Shown here piece after piece: positions 3,904-18,515 of a stretch of 37,174 bases of DNA; the stretch's first letter is position 1; the number at the start of each line of letters is the position of its first letter. A model generated the notes under the pieces. The model searched no databases, had not been told where the DNA came from, and saw only the letters and a list, made by a program, of their open reading frames with translations. The translations under genes and the position numbers were made by a program. Source of the DNA: Hyphomicrobiales bacterium (lineage in GTDB: Bacteria > Pseudomonadota > Alphaproteobacteria > Rhizobiales > Kaistiaceae); the NCBI GenBank assembly GCA_024222895.1, contig JAAEOR010000295.1:1-37174 (forward strand), given 5' to 3'.

Positions 3904-4821
3904 ATGGCCGCCGACCGCCCCACGAGAAGCCGCATCTACCAGAACCACCATTTGGACAACACCCGGTGGGACGCGATCGCCTATCGCGGCGACGACGTCG
4001 TTGTTGCCACCCCCTACAAATGCGGAACGACCTGGACCCAGTCCATAGTCCTGCACCTGATCTTCCAGGACCTCCAGCCGCGACCCATCTTCGCTGTGTC
4101 ACCGTGGATCGAATTCCGCGCCACCGACCTGAACGAAATCCGCACCCGGCTGCGCGGCCAGGCCCATCGCAGGTGCGTCAAGTCCCATGTTCCGATCGAC
4201 GGCATCCCGTTCGATGGCGCGGTCCGCTACATTGTCGTCGGTCGAGACCCTCGCGACGTGTTCATGTCGCTTTGGAACCACTACAGCCACTACAACGCCG
4301 CGGCTTACGCCGAGTTCAATGATACCCCGGGCCGCGTCGGCGACCCCTGCCCGCCATGCCCGGATGACGTGCGCACATTCTGGTCGTGGTGGATCAAGCG
4401 CGGATGGTTCGATGAGGACACCGAAGGCTATCCCTTCTGGTCCAACTTCCGCCACATCCAAAGCTGGTGGGACTTCCGGCACCTGCCCAACATCCTGTTT
4501 GTCCACTACAATGATCTGCTCGCTCGTCCGAAGACCGAGATCTCCAGGATTGCCGATTTCCTCGATATCGGTTGCTCCGATTCCGTACGCGATACCATTG
4601 CCGATGCGGTGAGTTTCCGATCGATGAAGGCGGCCGCCGATGAGATTGCCGTCGCCGCCGCCGACATTTTCGACGGAGGGACTGCAACCTTCATCAACAA
4701 AGGCACCAACGGACGCTGGCGGAGCATTCTGACTCCTGGCGACCTCCGCGACTACCAAGAAACCGCGGCGCGCGAACTGTCATCGGACTGCCGACAATGG
4801 CTGGAAGGCGCCGCGACCTGA
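3904..4821 (+). CDS. Sulfotransferase domain protein (PAPS-dependent)
   Basis: A 305-residue cytosolic-type sulfotransferase, expected to transfer sulfate from PAPS to a hydroxyl or amine acceptor. The 5'-phosphosulfate loop is YKCGTTWTQSIV at about residues 38-49. The 3'-phosphate-binding region is YIVVGRDPRDVFMSLWNHY at about 110-128, preceded by KSHVP. The C-terminal P-loop-like element appears as NKGTNGRWRSIL at about 263-274, corresponding to the family KGxxGxW motif. A catalytic His may be present in KSHVP, as in related enzymes. No signal peptide is visible. The acceptor is unknown. The start lacks a strong ribosome-binding site. A strong hairpin 53 bases downstream probably ends the transcript before the DUF3604 gene. 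Confidence 0.9.
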   Translation: MAADRPTRSRIYQNHHLDNTRWDAIAYRGDDVVVATPYKCGTTWTQSIVLHLIFQDLQPRPIFAVSPWIEFRATDLNEIRTRLRGQAHRRCVKSHVPIDGIPFDGAVRYIVVGRDPRDVFMSLWNHYSHYNAAAYAEFNDTPGRVGDPCPPCPDDVRTFWSWWIKRGWFDEDTEGYPFWSNFRHIQSWWDFRHLPNILFVHYNDLLARPKTEISRIADFLDIGCSDSVRDTIADAVSFRSMKAAADEIAVAAADIFDGGTATFINKGTNGRWRSILTPGDLRDYQETAARELSSDCRQWLEGAAT

Positions 4822-10403: not shown

Positions 10404-13400
10404 CTAGGCCGGTTGCGACGCACCCTCGCCTGATGGCTGACGGGTGGCTTCTTCCGGTCGGCCGAAAAGTTGATAGAGCGACGGCATCACCAGGAGCGTG
10501 ACCAGAGTTGAGGTGACCAGGCCACCAAGGATCACCATCGCCATCGGGAACTCGATCTCGTGGCCGGGGATGTCGCCGACGATCACCAGGGGCAGCAATG
10601 CCATGCCGGTGGTAATCGCGGTCATCAGCACCGGCGCCAGCCGCTCCAGCGCGCCGCGCATCACCAGCTCGGGCCCGAACGGCATGCTTTCTTCGCGCTG
10701 CAGATGCTGGTAATGGCTGAGCAGCAGGATGCCATTGCGCGCTGCGATACCGAGCACCGTGATGAAGCCGACCAGCGACCCCAGCGTCAGGACGCCGCCG
10801 CTGGTGAAGGTGGCAAACACGCCGCCGACAAAGGCGATCGGCAGGATCGCAAAGGCCATCGTGGCCAAGCGCCACGATCCGAAGGCCGCCTGCAGCAGGA
10901 AGAAGATCCCGATCAAGGCGGCGATCTCGACCAGGAACAGACGCTCGCTGGCGGCGCGCAGCTCCTTGTACTCACCAAGCAGTTCAGGCCGGTAGCCGAG
11001 CGGGAAATCAATGGTGCGCACGGCGGCCAGCACGTCTTCCGCCACCGCGGCGAGGTCGCGGCCGCGGACATTGGCCTCGATGTTGATATAGCGCGAGGCA
11101 TGCTCGCGCTGAATGACGTTAGGCGTCGGGGCGACCCGCACGCTGGCGACATCGCGCAGCGGCACGGCGCCACCGCCAGGCGTGTCGAGCAACAGATACT
11201 CGATGTCTGTGACGCTCCGCCGGTTCTCCGGTGGCGTCCAGACATAGACATCATAGGTCTCGCCACGCTTGTAGATATCGCCGACCTCCTGGCCGGCGAC
11301 CAGGAAGCTGACGGCCCGCCGCACGTCGCCGGGTTTCAGCCCGTATTGACTGGCGCGAGCGAGGTCCACTTCGACTTCGATCTGGGGGATCTCGCGCTGG
11401 AGCGAAACGTGGACGTCGATCGCGCCGTCGATCGGCTCCATCTTGGCGCGGACCTCCTGGGCCTTGTCGCGCAGCACCTGCAACTCCGGTCCATAGACAC
11501 GAATGACGATGGCCTCACCGGCCCCGCTTAACACCTCGCGGATGCGCTCCTTGAGATAGGTGAGCACGTCGCGATAGAGACCGGGATAGCCGTCGACGAC
11601 TTCCTGGATCTTGGCGATCGTCTCGTCATACGGCGCACTCGGATCGACGCTGACCCAGTTCTCGCCGAAATGCATGCCAACCACCTCGTCCATCAGGTAG
11701 GCTTGGCCGATATGAGCGCCGAAATTGCGCACGCCGGGAATGGCGCGCAGCTCTTTGCTGGCGGCGATGGTGATCCGGTTCATTTCCTCATGCGAGGTGC
11801 CCGGCGTTGTAACCCAGTGCATCAGGAAGTCGCGTTCCTTAAAGGACGGCAGCAGCTGCTGGCCGAGGAACGGATAGAGACCGATGCCGACGACGCCAAG
11901 TACACCGGCAGTGGCAAAGGCGATCAACGGCTTGCGGACGATCGGCATCAGAACCCGCCGATAGCCGCGCTTCAGAACCCGCACCAGCGGCGACTCCCGC
12001 CGATGCAGCGGCGCCCGAGCCAGCAGGATCAGGCAGAGCGCCGGGGTCACCGTCATGGCAACCACCAGCGAGGCCAGCAGCGACAGGCAATAGGCCATCG
12101 CCAGCGGCGTGAAGAAAGAGCCCGACAGACCGCCGAGGAAGAACACCGGTACCACCGCGAGCACGATGATCAGCGTGGCGTAAACAATGGCCGAACGGAT
12201 CTCGACCGAGGCGTCGAGAATGACCCGGCCGACCGATCGGGGCTCGAGTGCGACCCGGTTCTGGCGCAACCGCCGGACAATGTTCTCAACGTCAATGATC
12301 GCATCGTCGACCACCGCCCCCAGCGCGATCACCATGCCGGCGAGGATCATGGTGTTCATGGTGACGCCCATGGCGTAGAGCACCAGCCCGGCCGCAACCA
12401 GCGACAGCGGAATGGCGACGACACTGATCAGGGCGACCCGCCACTCGAACAGGAAGGCGCCGAGGACGACCACGACCAGCACCGCGCCGAACAGGAGCGC
12501 GTTGCCAAGGTTGTCGATCGACATCTCGATAAAGGTTGCCGGGCGGAAGATCTCCGCGTCGATCTCCATATCCGGCAGCCCCGGCGCAAGCGCCTCCAGC
12601 GCTTCCTCGACGCCGCGGGTGACATCGAGCGTGTTGGCCCACGGGAATTTCTCGACGATCAGCAACAAGCCGATGTCGTCGTTGACGATTCCGTCGCCGA
12701 CCATCGGCTGATGATCCTCGACAACATTGGCAATGTCGGAAAGACGCACCGGCGTGCCATCGGCGTCGATCTTGACGACCACTTCGGCGAGCTCGTCCGA
12801 TGTCACGATTGGCAGGACGTGTTGGATACCCAGCCGCTGGTTAGCGGTTTCGATGAAGCCGCCTGTTCCGACCACCGCATCCGGCGAATACTGGAGCAGC
12901 CCCACATTGAGGGCGTCGGCGGTCGCCTCCATGACTGTGTCCAGGGTGACACCCGCATCCCATAGTCGCCGGGGCTCGACCTGTACCTGCATCATCCGCA
13001 GCCGCTCACCCCACATGGCGACATTGGCCACGCCGGGGACACGCAGCAGCCGCGCTCTTATCTTCCAATACGCGGTCATCGACAGGTCGATCACCGAATG
13101 GGTGTCGGAGGAGATGCCGATCTTCATCACCCGGCTGGTGGCCGACAGCGGCTGCAGCATGAACGGCGGCGAGGACCAGCTGGGCAGCGACGGACTGACC
13201 AGATCGACCCGCTCCTGAACCAGCTGCCGGGCGTGGAGCATATCGACGCCGCGCTCGAAATAGAGCTTGATCGCCGAGAGCTGGGGCACCGATTTGGAGC
13301 GCATCACATCCAGACCCGGCAGACCGGCCAGGGCATCCTCCAACGGAATGGTGATCAGCTCTTCGGTTTCGCGCGGCGACATACCGACCGCAATGGTCTG

Positions 13401-13547
13401 GATCTCGACGATCGGCGGCGCAAACTCGGGAAAGACATCGACCGGCATGGTCTGCAGGCGGTCATAGCCGATGGCGACCATGGCCACCGACAGCGCCAGC
13501 AGCAGAAAGCGGAATCTGAGGCTGGTTCCAATGATCCAGCGGAACAT
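10404..13547 (-). CDS. RND efflux permease, heavy-metal (CusA/CzcA) type, permease 1
   Basis: A 1047-residue inner-membrane proton antiporter of the RND superfamily. The N-terminus has the first membrane helix followed by DVFPEFAPPIVEIQT, typical of CusA/CzcA proteins. Twelve membrane helices in two sets of six with two large periplasmic loops fit the length. TM4 is intact: IALGAVVDDAIIDVEN has Asp414, Asp415 and the Glu-Asn pair at 421-422. The second half keeps TVLGIAARNGILLLSHYQ and the late GGLVTSTLVTLLVMPSLYQLFG. It should carry ions or hydrophobic compounds across the envelope with an adaptor and an outer-membrane channel; the substrate cannot be read from the sequence. It is the last gene of a minus-strand operon (permease 2, adaptor, permease 1). 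It is clearly paralogous to permease 2: both share VEDHQP, EKFPWA and IFRPA(T/S)FIE. Confidence 0.93.
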   Translation of the reverse strand: MFRWIIGTSLRFRFLLLALSVAMVAIGYDRLQTMPVDVFPEFAPPIVEIQTIAVGMSPRETEELITIPLEDALAGLPGLDVMRSKSVPQLSAIKLYFERGVDMLHARQLVQERVDLVSPSLPSWSSPPFMLQPLSATSRVMKIGISSDTHSVIDLSMTAYWKIRARLLRVPGVANVAMWGERLRMMQVQVEPRRLWDAGVTLDTVMEATADALNVGLLQYSPDAVVGTGGFIETANQRLGIQHVLPIVTSDELAEVVVKIDADGTPVRLSDIANVVEDHQPMVGDGIVNDDIGLLLIVEKFPWANTLDVTRGVEEALEALAPGLPDMEIDAEIFRPATFIEMSIDNLGNALLFGAVLVVVVLGAFLFEWRVALISVVAIPLSLVAAGLVLYAMGVTMNTMILAGMVIALGAVVDDAIIDVENIVRRLRQNRVALEPRSVGRVILDASVEIRSAIVYATLIIVLAVVPVFFLGGLSGSFFTPLAMAYCLSLLASLVVAMTVTPALCLILLARAPLHRRESPLVRVLKRGYRRVLMPIVRKPLIAFATAGVLGVVGIGLYPFLGQQLLPSFKERDFLMHWVTTPGTSHEEMNRITIAASKELRAIPGVRNFGAHIGQAYLMDEVVGMHFGENWVSVDPSAPYDETIAKIQEVVDGYPGLYRDVLTYLKERIREVLSGAGEAIVIRVYGPELQVLRDKAQEVRAKMEPIDGAIDVHVSLQREIPQIEVEVDLARASQYGLKPGDVRRAVSFLVAGQEVGDIYKRGETYDVYVWTPPENRRSVTDIEYLLLDTPGGGAVPLRDVASVRVAPTPNVIQREHASRYINIEANVRGRDLAAVAEDVLAAVRTIDFPLGYRPELLGEYKELRAASERLFLVEIAALIGIFFLLQAAFGSWRLATMAFAILPIAFVGGVFATFTSGGVLTLGSLVGFITVLGIAARNGILLLSHYQHLQREESMPFGPELVMRGALERLAPVLMTAITTGMALLPLVIVGDIPGHEIEFPMAMVILGGLVTSTLVTLLVMPSLYQLFGRPEEATRQPSGEGASQPA

Positions 13548-13653: not shown

Positions 13654-13758
13654 TCCTTCCGGGCGGAAAAGTGCAAACCACTTTTCCTGAAAACGCTCCT
13701 AGTCTTCGTTCCTTCTGAGCGGAAACGTGGAACCACTATTCCTGAAAACGCTTCTAGT
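13654..13758. repeat. Tandem pair of palindromic (REP-like) repeat units inside the RND operon
   Basis: Two imperfect direct copies, 13654-13703 and 13710-13758, each about 49 bases. Copy 1 holds a perfect hairpin, GGAAAAGTG (13665-13673) and CACTTTTCC (13679-13687) with loop CAAAC. In copy 2 the same hairpin has decayed (GGAAACGTG / CACTATTCC). Both are followed by TGAAAACGCT and CTAGT. The stop codon of the adaptor gene (TAG, complement of 13754-13756) lies inside the end of copy 2. Hairpins of this form are, to my knowledge, common intergenic palindromes in alphaproteobacteria. Here the pair sits between adaptor and permease 1, where it could stabilise or attenuate the mRNA. Confidence 0.8.
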
Positions 13759-14530
13759 GCCCCACCCGCTGCTCCGTGCCGAGCAGTTCGGCCGCACCAA
13801 CCGTCACGACCATCGCGCCAACCTCCGGTCCCTCCAGCAAAAAAGCCTTATCACCTTCGATGTAGGCGATATCCACCGGTTCGCGCTGATAGACCCCCGG
13901 CTCGGGGCTGACATAGACCCACTCGTCGCCGTTGTGGTCGTAGATAATCGACCCGTACGGCACGACCGTATGGGGTTCACCATTGCCGGCGAAGGGCACT
14001 TCGACCAGCACTCGATGGCCGGCCTCCAGTCCGCCGACGTCACCGACCGTGCGATAGTAGAGCATGCCGCCGCCTTCGGCGGTGACCGTGCGATTCAGCC
14101 CCTCGTCGGGTCGCGCCTCCAGTCCGGCACCGCCGCCACCGTTCAAGGCGCGGATCCGGATCGGCAGGTGCTTGGCATCTTCGATCGCTTCGGTGATCGG
14201 AAAGGAAATCCACAGCCCGGGCGCAGCGGGCGCCGACGCCTCGCCATCGGCCATGGTCTTCGGCGGCTCGGTCAACACGTCGCCGCCGATAATGAAACTG
14301 CGGTTGGCCTCCTCGGCCGTTACTGCCGCGGTTTCGATTCCTAGCCGGCCGACCGCTCGTTCGGTCAGGGTAATCTTCACCCGTTCCCCGTCGTCGAGTT
14401 CCTCAAGCGCGTAGGGGGCGACATAGCCCTCGCCTGGTCCGCCACCACCGCCGGCTGCCTCGGCACCATAGGCTGCTGCAACGGCCAGCAACGCGGCCGA
14501 CGGTATGAGGCGGAACCATTCATGCTGCAT
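13754..14530 (-). CDS. Short RND periplasmic adaptor-like protein
   Basis: A 258-residue exported protein with a signal sequence (LIPSAALLAVAAAYGAEA) and then a Gly-rich linker. KITLTERAVGRLGIETAAV at about residues 48-66 matches the strand that opens many CusB-type adaptors. TVVPYGSIIYDHNGDEWVYV and VVTVGAAELLGTE match their beta-barrel and C-terminal membrane-proximal regions. Normal adaptors have 350-450 residues with a lipoyl domain and a long helical hairpin. Between the two matching parts here there are only about 120 residues and no obvious coiled coil, so the hairpin seems to be missing. The ATG at 14530 has GGAAGGAC before it and overlaps the end of permease 2 by 11 bases, so the two are translationally coupled. 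It probably bridges the two permeases or a shared periplasmic partner. The adaptor assignment is inferred from these strands and the operon. Confidence 0.7.
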   Translation of the reverse strand: MQHEWFRLIPSAALLAVAAAYGAEAAGGGGGPGEGYVAPYALEELDDGERVKITLTERAVGRLGIETAAVTAEEANRSFIIGGDVLTEPPKTMADGEASAPAAPGLWISFPITEAIEDAKHLPIRIRALNGGGGAGLEARPDEGLNRTVTAEGGGMLYYRTVGDVGGLEAGHRVLVEVPFAGNGEPHTVVPYGSIIYDHNGDEWVYVSPEPGVYQREPVDIAYIEGDKAFLLEGPEVGAMVVTVGAAELLGTEQRVGH

Positions 14531-17500
14531 GGGAATGTCCTTCCGACAGGAGGTCCGAAGTCGCAGTGCCGCGCCCGAACAGAAGATAGAGTGCCGGTAC
14601 CGCGCAGAGGTTGACCAGAGTGGTGGTGATGACGCCACCGATCAGCACCATGGCCAGCGGCCCGAGAGTTTCCAGGCCCGGCAATCCGGCAAGGACCGCG
14701 GCCGGCACCACCGCCAGCGCCGTACCGATGCCGGTCGTGATAATCGCGGCCGTCCGCGCCCGGGTGCCGCGAGCAACCAGGTCCGGCCCGAAGGGCTCGC
14801 CTTCCCGCTCCAGGCGCTGAAAGTCGCGGATCAATACCAGTGCGCCACGGCTGGCAATTGCAACAGTGGCGAGCAGGCCTGCGATCGCGCCAAGCGACAA
14901 CACACCGCCGGTGACCGCGACGACAATCGCGCCACCCGATGTGGCTGCCAGCAGCGCCACGAAGGCCGCTGCACCGAGGCGCCAGCCACCGGCCGCCGCC
15001 TGAACGAGCAGGAACACACCGATCAGCGCAGCGGCCATAGCCAACAGAAGCCGGTTATTGTTCGCTTGTGCCTCGGCAAAGTCGGTCAGCAGTTCGGCGT
15101 GGTACTCGAGCGGAAACTGGATCGCAGCGACCTTGCCGGTGATCTCCTCGGCGATGGCGTTGACGTTGCCGCCGTCGACCCGGGCCGTCACATCGATGAA
15201 GCGCGAAACGGCATCACGATGAATGATGTTGGGGAGTGATCCCACCGAAACATCGGCAACGTCACCGAGGCGGACCGGCCCGCCACCCGGTCCATCGATC
15301 ATCAAGTCGCGAACACTGGTGACATTGCCCCGGATTTCCGGCACGCCCCACACCACAACCTCGAAAACCTTCTGGTCTTCATAGAGGCTGCCCACCTCAA
15401 GGCCCGACAGCAATACGGCTGCGGTCCGCCGCACGTCGCCGGGTCTAAGGCCAAAGGCCTTGGCGCGATCGAGATCCGCCTCGATCCGAACCACCGGCTC
15501 CAGCACGCGCTCTTCGATCTCAACGTCGGAAACCCCGTCGACTCCCGAGACCAGGGTCTGCATCTCGGCAGCAAGGTCGCCAAGAATCTCCATGTCGTAG
15601 CCGAAGATCCGCAGGGTCACGGTATCATCGACCGGCCGGGTGTACGCGCGCTTCCTCTCCTCCGAATAGTTCAACACCTCACCGGCCGCGCCGGGATAGC
15701 CGTCGACAATCTCCCGGATGCCGGCGAGCGACGCGTCGTAGTCGGCATCAGCGCCTAGCTTGACCCAAACCTGCGCCGTGTTGACGTTGCCGACCCGGTC
15801 GGAATTGATGGCACGACCGATGTGGGCCCCGACATTGTCGACTCCCGGAAGGCCGCGCAGGTCGCCGGCAACATTGGCGACGAAACGCGCCATCGCCGGG
15901 TGGGACGTGCCGGGCGCCGCGGCCCAGTCGATGACGATGTCGCGTTCCTTGAAGGTCGGCACGACGGCGCGTTCCGCGACGGCCGCAAGCCCGATGGCAA
16001 CTACCGCCAGGACGCACGCCGCGCCGAACATCGGGCCGCGGGCCGACACGGCCAGGCCATGACCACCGCCCGTGGTCGGTGCAGCCCTGGCCGAAGCTGT
16101 CGGCGCCGCGGTGCCGGCAGGCATGACCAGGGCCGCCAACACCGGCACCAGGGTGACTGAAACGATGAAAGAGACGATGACCGCCACGGCGAACGGCAGC
16201 GCCACGGACATCGCCACCGCGCCTGCGACACCGCTCATTGCGAACATTGGCAGAGTCGCCAGAACTGCAATGACCGTTCCATAGGCAAGGGCACTACGGC
16301 TCTGACCCAGAAGGCTGGCCATACGTGAATAAGGGGTCCCAACCCGCCCGACACGACGGTACAGCCCGGCATCGACAGTGGCGTCGGTGACAATCGCCCC
16401 AATCGCCGCCATCAGGCCGGACATCATGATGATGTCGAATCCGACACCAGCGAAGAGCAGGACCGTGAACGCGGTGATCATCGACACAGGGATCGCGACC
16501 GCCGCGACGATGGTGGCGCGCCAGTTGCGCAATCCGATGACCAGGGCAACCAGCAGCAGACCCGCTCCAATCAGCGTCGCCCGCCAGAGGTTCGCCGTTG
16601 CTGTCTCGATGAAGCTCGCGGGCCGGAAGATCGATGTATCGATGTCGACGCCTGGCAGGCTCAGGCTGAGATCGACCAGCGCCGCCTCGATCCCTTCGGT
16701 GACCGCGACGGTATCCGCCCACGGGAACTTCTCGATGACGAGAAGAACACCCGGACCGTCGCCAACCAGCGCATCGCCGATCAGCGGTTGATGGTCCTCG
16801 ACGATCGTCGTCACATCGCCAAGGCGGACCCTGGTTCCCTCGACCGCGACATTAGCAAGATCGTCGGCCGTCGAAATCGGCAGGACATGGCGCACGGTCA
16901 GCCGCTGGTTGGGGGTATCGATGAAACCACCGGATCCGGGCGTGGAGGCGTTGAGAAAGCTTAGCGGCGAGAACCACAGGGAGTTGCCGGCGGTGCTGAC
17001 AATCTGGTCGAGGGAGATGTCCTCGGCCTGCAATCGGCCGGGATCGACCTGGACCTGAAGCTGCCGGTTGCGCATCCCCCAGATCGACACATTGGCAACA
17101 CCGGCCACGCCCATCAAACGGGGCCGCATCACCCAGTGGGCTTCGACCGAGATTTCAATGTTGGAGAGCTCTTCCGATGTCAGCCCGACCTGCATGACCC
17201 GGCTGGTCGACGACAGGGGCTGCAGCATGACGGGCGGGCGCGACACGTTCGGCAGGGCGTGGGCCTGGGTCAGCCGTTCCTGTATCAGCTGTCTGGCTTT
17301 CCAGATATCGGTGTCGTCCTCGAACACCATGACGATCGACGACAGGCCCGGCATGGACCGGGAGCGGATGGTCTTGATCCACGAGATACCGTTAAGCAGG
17401 TCCGCTTCCAGCGGGACGGTGATCAGGGCTTCGACTTCTTCGGCTGATAGACCCAGGGCCTCGGTCTGCACCTCCACCAGCGGTGGCGAGAACTCGGGCA

Positions 17501-17612
17501 AGATATCGAGAGATCGGTCACGGGATTGGAGGAAGCCGGCGGCGACAATGACCGCAAAGACGATGATGACCAGGTAGCGATAGCGGATCAGCACAGTGGC
17601 TGCGGCATTCAT
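14520..17612 (-). CDS. RND efflux permease-like protein, permease 2, with altered proton-relay residues
   Basis: A 1030-residue RND protein, paralogue of permease 1. It opens with one membrane helix and DILPEFSPPLVEVQT. It retains the periplasmic features ITVPLE, QPLSSTSRVMQVGL, GGFIDTPNQRL, VEDHQPLIGD, EKFPWADTVAV and IFRPASFIE. TM4 differs sharply: AIGAIVTDATVDAGLYRR has Thr409 where permease 1 has Asp414, and Ala-Gly-Leu where permease 1 has Val-Glu-Asn. In the second half ATVAIASRGALVLIRDFQ has Gly in place of the conserved Asn. The C-terminus still ends with PALYLLFG. It is therefore likely a poorly proton-coupled partner subunit, possibly in a mixed trimer with permease 1; this is inference. 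It is the first gene of the operon. The ATG at 17612 has a GGGGGGGA ribosome-binding stretch. Confidence 0.9.
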   Translation of the reverse strand: MNAAATVLIRYRYLVIIVFAVIVAAGFLQSRDRSLDILPEFSPPLVEVQTEALGLSAEEVEALITVPLEADLLNGISWIKTIRSRSMPGLSSIVMVFEDDTDIWKARQLIQERLTQAHALPNVSRPPVMLQPLSSTSRVMQVGLTSEELSNIEISVEAHWVMRPRLMGVAGVANVSIWGMRNRQLQVQVDPGRLQAEDISLDQIVSTAGNSLWFSPLSFLNASTPGSGGFIDTPNQRLTVRHVLPISTADDLANVAVEGTRVRLGDVTTIVEDHQPLIGDALVGDGPGVLLVIEKFPWADTVAVTEGIEAALVDLSLSLPGVDIDTSIFRPASFIETATANLWRATLIGAGLLLVALVIGLRNWRATIVAAVAIPVSMITAFTVLLFAGVGFDIIMMSGLMAAIGAIVTDATVDAGLYRRVGRVGTPYSRMASLLGQSRSALAYGTVIAVLATLPMFAMSGVAGAVAMSVALPFAVAVIVSFIVSVTLVPVLAALVMPAGTAAPTASARAAPTTGGGHGLAVSARGPMFGAACVLAVVAIGLAAVAERAVVPTFKERDIVIDWAAAPGTSHPAMARFVANVAGDLRGLPGVDNVGAHIGRAINSDRVGNVNTAQVWVKLGADADYDASLAGIREIVDGYPGAAGEVLNYSEERKRAYTRPVDDTVTLRIFGYDMEILGDLAAEMQTLVSGVDGVSDVEIEERVLEPVVRIEADLDRAKAFGLRPGDVRRTAAVLLSGLEVGSLYEDQKVFEVVVWGVPEIRGNVTSVRDLMIDGPGGGPVRLGDVADVSVGSLPNIIHRDAVSRFIDVTARVDGGNVNAIAEEITGKVAAIQFPLEYHAELLTDFAEAQANNNRLLLAMAAALIGVFLLVQAAAGGWRLGAAAFVALLAATSGGAIVVAVTGGVLSLGAIAGLLATVAIASRGALVLIRDFQRLEREGEPFGPDLVARGTRARTAAIITTGIGTALAVVPAAVLAGLPGLETLGPLAMVLIGGVITTTLVNLCAVPALYLLFGRGTATSDLLSEGHSHAA

Positions 17613-18044: not shown

Positions 18045-18515
18045 CTAGCTGTCGTCGGTCTCGATGGTGACCTCGGATCCGTCCCAGCTGATTTCAATAT
18101 CGATGGGTGCGCCCGATGCGTCGGTTCCCTCGATTTCGTACACCACCGCCCGATCATCGTCGACCAGACGCTCGACTTCCTCGGCCTTCATATCGGGCGC
18201 GTACTTGTCGAGCGCGGCCTTCACCGGGGCCGGCAGGGCATCGATGGTCGTGTGATGCTCAACCTCGATGACTTCACCTTCCTCGAGCACATCCACGGCA
18301 ACCACTGTGCCGTCGGCGAGGGTACCCTCGAATCCGTATTTGTCCTCGCCTTCATCGTCGCCAAGTTCGACCTTGGTGAACGTGGCCCCTTCCACCGCCG
18401 CTTTGGCAGCGTCCAATACGGTTTCCGGCACGTCCGACATGGAAATTTCCTTGTCGTCAGCATAGGCACCGGCCGTCACCAATGACGCCGCTGCGAAAGC
18501 AAGAAAGTAACGCAT
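18045..18515 (-). CDS. Small secreted PepSY-like protein
   Basis: A 156-residue exported acidic protein. The signal peptide MRYFLAFAAASLVTAGAYA is followed by a DDKE start of the mature chain. Two similar modules follow. The first runs from SDVPETVLDAAKAAVEGATF to VIEVEHHTTI. The second runs from DALPAPVKAALDKYAPDM through VERLVDDDRAVVYEIEG to EVTIETDD. This 'PxxVxxAxxxxxPxxxxxxVExxxxxxxxVYEvE' layout is the PepSY/BLIP-like periplasmic fold (DUF2874-type). Such proteins bind peptides, sensor kinases or cell-wall enzymes; no specific partner is shown. The start has a near-perfect GGAGG seven bases upstream. It stands alone 433 bases upstream of the RND operon on the same strand, so it could be co-regulated, but a shared transcript is unproven. 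Confidence 0.78.
   Translation of the reverse strand: MRYFLAFAAASLVTAGAYADDKEISMSDVPETVLDAAKAAVEGATFTKVELGDDEGEDKYGFEGTLADGTVVAVDVLEEGEVIEVEHHTTIDALPAPVKAALDKYAPDMKAEEVERLVDDDRAVVYEIEGTDASGAPIDIEISWDGSEVTIETDDS

Follow-up and report, generated by a model that had tools for sequence, protein, structure and literature searches.

A candidate obligate two-permease RND transporter with one frozen and one eroding permease

We analyzed a stretch of 37,174 nucleotides (the window) from a Hyphomicrobiales bacterium (assembly GCA_024222895.1, contig JAAEOR010000295.1) that encodes on its minus strand, in this order, a permease of the resistance-nodulation-division (RND) type (permease 2), a short adaptor, and another RND permease (permease 1). 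We propose, with a probability of about one half, that these genes encode an obligate two-permease transporter, a mixed trimer with permease 1 as its complete protomer and permease 2 as the degenerate partner. In total, 27 permease-2/permease-1 pairs, including that of the window, were found in the window's phylum and in Chloroflexota, and the family as a whole is marked by a permease 1 that is frozen, a permease 2 that erodes, and an adaptor that has shrunk. Both window permeases match PF00873 over their full length (permease 1, 702.8 bits; permease 2, 462.2 bits; curated cut-off, 28) and are 42% identical to each other. The genes are as follows:

17612..14520, minus strand: permease 2, a degenerate RND permease; intact open reading frame (ORF), 1030 aa
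14530 (ATG)..13754 (stop), minus strand: short membrane-fusion adaptor of 258 aa, with barrel and membrane-proximal parts only
13547..10404, minus strand: permease 1, a complete RND permease of 1047 aa with all eight network residues (see below)

The two permeases were aligned with AcrB, CusA, MdtB, and MdtC of E. coli K-12, with the codons checked, and eight residues of the proton-relay network were followed (AcrB D407, D408, E414, N415, K940, N941, R971, and T978). According to the available text of PMC8277102, D407, D408, K940, and R971 of AcrB are each essential, as replacing any one of them abolishes extrusion; R971 contacts E414 and N415, and there is good evidence that D408 is protonated in the cycle. 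Permease 1 carries D414, D415, E421, N422, R937, N938, R969, and T976 at these columns, in agreement with an earlier interpretation of the letters alone (the sequence-only reading), which had seen the standard motif of transmembrane helix 4 (TM4) there. At the same columns permease 2 has T409, D410, G416, a gap (with Leu417 next to it), R922, G923, R953, and T960, and the substitutions that had been described for it (Thr409 for the first Asp, Gly-Leu for the Glu-Asn pair, and Gly for Asn) were all correct. The codons concerned are:

16386..16388, minus strand: Thr409 of permease 2, AcrB Asp407 column
16383..16385, minus strand: Asp410 of permease 2, AcrB Asp408 column, kept
16362..16367, minus strand: Gly416-Leu417 of permease 2, replacing the Glu-Asn pair
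14844..14849, minus strand: Arg922 and Gly923 of permease 2; AcrB Lys940 column kept as Arg, Asn941 column lost
12303..12308, minus strand: Asp414-Asp415 of permease 1, from the alignment and codon check

The broader claim, that permease 2 had lost the acidic relay residue, stood for the first TM4 Asp but not for the second (D410), and the TM10 and TM11 partners remain. A shift of the first Asp by one position was ruled out, as V-T-D aligns with V-D-D without a gap and the residue is truly replaced. The relay of the window's permease 2 is eroded rather than absent, as Asp410, Arg922, Arg953, and Thr960 are still present. In the same alignment, MdtB and MdtC both have all eight residues, and CusA has Asp-Ala at the two TM4 Asp columns and Glu-Phe at the TM10 pair.

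The pairs were collected by searching overlapping genome sets, all of them samples, with permease 2. Among 385 genomes of the window's class, two matches each were found in the window's genome and in G178, and another eight gave a single, weaker match whose score was of the outgroup type. Among 142 relatives of G178, only G178 itself was matched. Besides the window, pairs were found in two of 398 genomes of the window's phylum (G653 and G669), in 5 of 201 genomes from the phylum of the Chloroflexi metagenome-assembled genome behind locus L029, in 14 of 146 genomes from the genus of G669, in 2 of 47 from the order of G926 (both found before), and in 7 of 126 from the order of G1013 (six of them new). 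The pairs called Chloroflexota here come from the L029 phylum set and from these two orders, which were chosen by genomes of that set. The first search, of 101 relatives at a laxer limit, had given matches in 16 genomes; apart from the window, these scored at most 392 bits and were all closer to permease 1 than to permease 2. One of the genomes searched, G688, has a single partial match on a 3-kb contig, which groups with the single-permease relatives in the tree, and no relative was found in the viral contigs searched. All 27 genomes with permease 2 also encode permease 1, which supports an obligate pairing; in G1278, where a contig end cuts permease 2, its remaining end is found on another contig together with permease 1. 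It should be noted that 14 of the 27 pairs are from species of one genus, so that the counts are not independent. A reduced set of 16 pairs, 3 of them from this genus, was used for the analyses of constraint and pocket columns. For G1014 and G1223, in which permease 2 is split by frame, only the longest open piece was used, and missing sequence was counted as lost.

Across the 27 pairs, permease 1 has each of the eight network residues without exception, and permease 2 does not. Its D407 column holds Asp in 12 cases, His in 14, and Thr in the window only; the His is found in 14/14 species of one genus. The D408 column is Asp in 26 and Glu in one. At E414 we found 15 Glu, 7 Asp, and 5 other residues, and at N415 Asn was kept in 17/27, with one gap. 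The K940 column has 24 Arg, one Lys, one His, and one missing; N941 is Asn in 3/26 and Gln in 19; R971 is Arg in 14 and Gln in 12 (one missing); and T978 is Thr in 9, Ser in 16, and Ala in one (one missing). On a permease-2 tree built without the network columns, the fewest changes needed were 2 at D407, 9 at E414, 5 at N415, 2 at K940, 6 at N941, 3 at R971, and 4 at T978. Erosion of the relay came after the duplication and in parallel, as permease 2 of G926 is intact at all eight positions and changes recur on the tree. The contrast between an eroding membrane network in permease 2 and an invariant one in permease 1 is therefore borne out. This was not the case for Asp-to-Thr as the defining trait of permease 2, which we rejected: the substitution is not fixed, the retained Asp in 12/27 goes part of the way to refuting the sequence-only reading by its own test, and the change to Thr belongs to the window's own lineage. 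Similarly, the proposal that only one partner is proton-driven goes too far, given the acidic residue at the Asp408 column of every permease 2.

The tree is best explained by a single duplication that gave rise to the pair. In a tree of 28 rows, which left out G1014 permease 2 and one distant row, the eight permease-2 rows form one clade (100/100) and the nine permease-1 rows another (98/95), and the two together are set apart from the single-permease relatives at 100/100. A quick tree with all 27 permease-2 rows also places permease 2 on one side of a branch (100), but does not separate its six permease-1 rows from the single relatives, with which they share one fork. End branches in the 28-row tree (permease 2/permease 1) measure 0.97/0.46 for the window, 0.98/0.51 for G178, 0.57/0.21 for G917, 0.53/0.18 for G834, 0.33/0.19 for G1013, and 0.37/0.19 for G926, for which the sister rows differ; the branch of the window's permease 2 is among the longest in the tree.

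In the genus of the 14 His-variant species, the only one tested, purifying selection acts on permease 2. The median pairwise ratio of nonsynonymous to synonymous substitution rates (dN/dS) was 0.162 for permease 2 and 0.149 for permease 1 (91 pairs each), and the ratios of the sums were 0.178 and 0.141. Together with the intact ORF, the median of 0.16 upholds the earlier view of permease 2 as full length and not decaying. The structural model of the window's permease 2 has a normal RND fold (pLDDT 81.7, pTM 0.79). Among the 50 matches listed it reaches RND structures with TM-scores of 0.79-0.86; ZneA and CusA lead by E-value, and AcrB entries have equal or higher TM-scores. In two draft assemblies, G1014 (L070) and G1223 (L109), permease 2 is read in two overlapping pieces, by error or by decay.

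To see where constraint fell, we used 91 columns that are invariant in 16 permease-1, 6 single-permease, and 5 outgroup rows, with Fisher tests made row by row (uncorrected; missing sequence scored as lost). In the window's permease 2, 18/51 membrane columns and 5/40 periplasmic columns are lost (p 0.016, uncorrected), a bias toward the membrane that would be more than chance. Over the 16 pairs, mean retention in permease 2 was 0.889 and 0.871 in the periplasmic halves, 0.676 in TM2-6, and 0.76 in TM8-12. Nine of the 16 permease-2 rows lose more membrane columns at p<0.05 (G1278 being inflated by its missing end), two do so at p 0.05-0.1, and three (G178, G926, and G1064) have no significant difference; the other two, G1014 and G1223, go in the opposite direction, and both have split frames. 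Four permease-1 rows, each left out in turn, lost 0-2 membrane and 0-4 periplasmic columns. When the 202 columns invariant in permease 1 and the single relatives only were used, the contrast was weaker (periplasmic 0.84/0.705, membrane 0.682/0.703).

Positions of the porter pocket were lost more consistently in the 27 permeases 2 than the TM4 Asp. We examined the columns of CusA Met573, Met623, and Met672, which form the metal site of CusA, and the pair has no Met at any of the three. Two codons of the window's permease 2 are concerned:

15927..15929, minus strand: Asp562, CusA Met573 column; His in 27/27 permease 1 and 2/27 permease 2
15777..15779, minus strand: Thr612, CusA Met623 column; Phe in 27/27 permease 1 and 0/27 permease 2

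The single relatives have the same His and Phe in 6/6. At the Met672 column, Glu is found in 27/27 permease 1 and 18/27 permease 2, and neither Phe574 nor Met576 of permease 1 is found in any permease 2 of the reduced set (0/16). We infer that permease 2 diverged first in the pocket and later in the relay, as G926 permease 2 has a complete relay but has already lost the pocket His and Phe. Since permease 1 retains both sets of residues, this argues against a division of labor in which one subunit binds the substrate and the other takes the protons.

The adaptor ORF lies between the two permeases in 27/27 pairs. In 13 of the 15 adaptors that were aligned, only the two halves of the membrane-proximal domain are left behind a leader, often with a lipoprotein-type Cys, and the adaptors of the window and of G178 additionally keep a part that aligns with the barrel of full adaptors. 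The alpha-hairpin region is absent from 15/15 and present in the three full relatives compared; alignment with full adaptors found no lipoyl part in the window adaptor. The latter scores 25.7 bits with TIGR01730 (RND_mfp), below the cut-off of 94.9 and over profile positions 232-313 of 322 only, and is homologous to full adaptors by phmmer (E 3e-17 to 3e-20). Its model (pLDDT 77.4) matches CusB, ZneB, and hairpin-less BesA, with modest TM-scores of 0.33-0.50 to the query for these entries. In none of the nine pair loci searched (10-37 kb, the window among them) did we find an ORF resembling TolC or CusC, the rest of these genomes not being searched; the same queries gave one match in each of two control loci. 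The shrunken adaptor probably cannot reach the outer membrane, and the system is probably not tripartite. Chloroflexota mostly lack an outer membrane, and such an envelope would suit an adaptor without the parts that reach TolC. BesA of Borrelia, an adaptor without the alpha-hairpin (PMC3807786, in the text available), resembles the window adaptor in this respect but has kept its lipoyl, barrel, and membrane-proximal domains. The aligned adaptors have lost the lipoyl part as well and, in 13/15, the barrel.

Regarding known systems, the best subfamily model for both permeases is CusA/CzcA (TIGR00914), at 587.5 bits for permease 1 and 306.7 for permease 2. The pair thus resembles the heavy-metal permeases CusA, CzcA, and ZneA, also in the fold matches listed, but stays below the family cut-off of 701.45, and the Asp-Ala of CusA TM4 corresponds to Asp-Asp in permease 1. 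The nearest outgroup consists of single-permease relatives on Methylomonas, Hymenobacter, and Sphingobium plasmids, which share the network residues of permease 1 and, unlike the pair, come with one permease, a full adaptor, and a TolC family gene. ExsFGH of Bradyrhizobium, in the text available a single-permease system with its own TolC-type gene, has no visible link to the pair.

That the pair might be a divergent member of the heterotrimeric HAE-1 pumps MdtABC/MuxABC is suggested by the two homologous permease genes with an adaptor in one operon, which derive from one duplication there too, and by the identity between partners, 42% here and 50% for MdtB and MdtC (PMC4338810). We consider this very improbable. 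The MdtB/MdtC models give only 256.3/288.9 bits for permease 1 and 110.1/153.2 for permease 2 (cut-offs 1584/1774), so that the pair belongs to another sequence family. Its adaptor is truncated and lies between the permeases, not before two adjacent ones as in MdtBC/MuxBC, and in the available text of PMC7015380, which traces MdtB and MdtC to one duplication in Proteobacteria, MdtC-like genes never adjoin the adaptor. No TolC-like gene is nearby in the nine loci, and MdtB and MdtC both keep the whole relay network, unlike permease 2. The best reading is an obligate, asymmetric two-permease RND system distinct from MdtBC. A full-text literature search that included Chloroflexi RND pairs found no description of this pair (subscription papers lay outside its coverage). 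A 2024 survey of 6205 RND permeases from 920 Gram-negative proteomes reported 203 tandem permease repeats, all in the MdtBC clade; as far as its available text goes, it excluded Chloroflexi, and Chloroflexota were grouped with Gram-positives (PMC10872679). Pairs with an adaptor gene in between may have gone unnoticed in it.

For the mechanism, a mixed, unequally powered trimer seems the most likely, at about even odds. After one duplication of a CusA/CzcA-like permease, permease 1 would have remained the complete protomer, with the whole relay network and the porter-pocket residues, and would carry out proton-coupled transport. Permease 2 would be constrained but degenerate, having lost pocket residues in nearly every lineage and the relay shell to a depth that depends on the lineage; in the window the shell losses are Asp407, Glu414, Asn415, and Asn941, and the Asp408-Arg940-Arg971 core is kept. 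Within the mixed trimer it could be a weakly energized protomer or an idle structural or regulatory one. This reading draws on the obligate pairing, the one-sided erosion, and the precedent of MdtBC, a B2C heterotrimer in which relay mutations in MdtB hurt more than those in MdtC (PMC4338810, in the text available). The complex would probably release its substrate into the periplasm (outside, in Chloroflexota) and not via a tripartite channel, as the adaptor lacks the parts that reach TolC. More tentatively, the pair may represent a second, independently evolved heteromeric RND lineage with a pseudo-protomer in its mixed trimer: the pocket would have been lost first and then different relay parts in parallel, with the adaptor reduced to little beyond the membrane-proximal domain, giving a single-membrane transporter common to Chloroflexota and members of the window's phylum.

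Several observations weigh against the mixed trimer with a degenerate partner. The intact network of G926 permease 2 is one; another is that with the 202-column set the second periplasmic half (0.705) is as eroded as the membrane (0.682 and 0.703). Outer-membrane factors may be encoded elsewhere in the pair genomes, as only the loci were searched. In addition, with Asp or Glu at the 408 column in 27/27 and a basic residue at the 940 column in 25/26 permease 2 (His in one), proton coupling in permease 2 may persist. This last point leads to the main rival, which we regard as possible but doubtful: permease 2 would still be proton-driven through a remodeled, not lost, relay of a single Asp, Asp410, with Arg922 and Arg953, either in a mixed trimer or in a homotrimer of its own with another substrate. 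In AcrB it is Asp408 whose protonation is well supported (PMC8277102, in the available text), CusA likewise has a single Asp at the two TM4 columns, in its case at the D407 one, and the changed pocket fits a new substrate. However, AcrB does not tolerate the replacement of D407 any more than that of D408, K940, or R971 (same source), the R971 column is Gln in 12/26 permease 2, and a new function of its own would leave unexplained the constant presence of permease 1 wherever permease 2 was found.

The same erosion could be that of a copy on its way to becoming a pseudogene, as the end branches of permease 2 are longer than those of permease 1 and its frame is split in 2/27, with no such split seen in permease 1. 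This is improbable: dN/dS in the genus tested is near that of permease 1, the window's permease 2 is intact, His is fixed in 14/14 species, and the splits, being in draft assemblies, could be errors. An ordinary pump pair with neutral, lineage-specific substitutions, in which the Thr has no meaning of its own, would account for a Thr seen once in 27 with Asp kept in 12, on one of the longest branches of the tree. We consider this about as improbable as decay, as the same network was lost repeatedly in permease 2 (at least 2, 9, 6, and 4 changes at D407, E414, N941, and T978) and never in the 27 partners.

With homotrimers it is difficult to test if all protomers of an RND pump need to be proton-driven, and a family in which one partner has been stripped to differing degrees with the other frozen offers a ready series of test proteins. 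The short adaptor likewise makes it possible to ask which part of an adaptor is required by an RND permease at all.

The neighbor genes of five pair loci gave no consistent clue to the substrate. Upstream of its pair, G669 has two genes for CobW-type GTPases (L055:819-3043), a possible hint of metal homeostasis. PepSY-domain proteins flank the pair downstream in G669 (L055:14688-15821) and, with a weak match, upstream in the window:

18045..18515, minus strand: PepSY-like protein, encoded upstream of permease 2; 34.9 bits with NF051432 (cut-off, 60)

Genes for HisKA_3-type sensor kinases were found upstream of the pair in three Chloroflexota loci (L067:159-2305, L068:3767-5525, and L070:11980-12981), with LuxR-type response regulators confirmed in two of the three.

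When 18 window genes were compared with the surroundings of PBP4 in four same-genus genomes, only PBP4 and one weak SDR match were found, and these genomes gave no permease-2 match at E 1e-60. The operon is thus not conserved in the window's genus as sampled. Contamination of the contig was considered and held unlikely, as the PBP4 gene is matched at 63-69% identity in 4/4 of these genomes and as 28-nt repeats of the window recur on many contigs of the same assembly. Two copies of this repeat (13676-13703 and 13731-13758, 55 nt apart) separate the adaptor gene from permease 1. With <=2 mismatches, the repeat core is matched 63 times in the window's genome, often in clusters with a spacing of ~57 nt, and a backward control is matched 0 times; the repeats are a dispersed family of this genome. 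Elsewhere in the window, the product of positions 4983-6914 matches DUF3604 over nearly its full length (793 bits), and a sulfotransferase gene lies beside it at 3904-4821.

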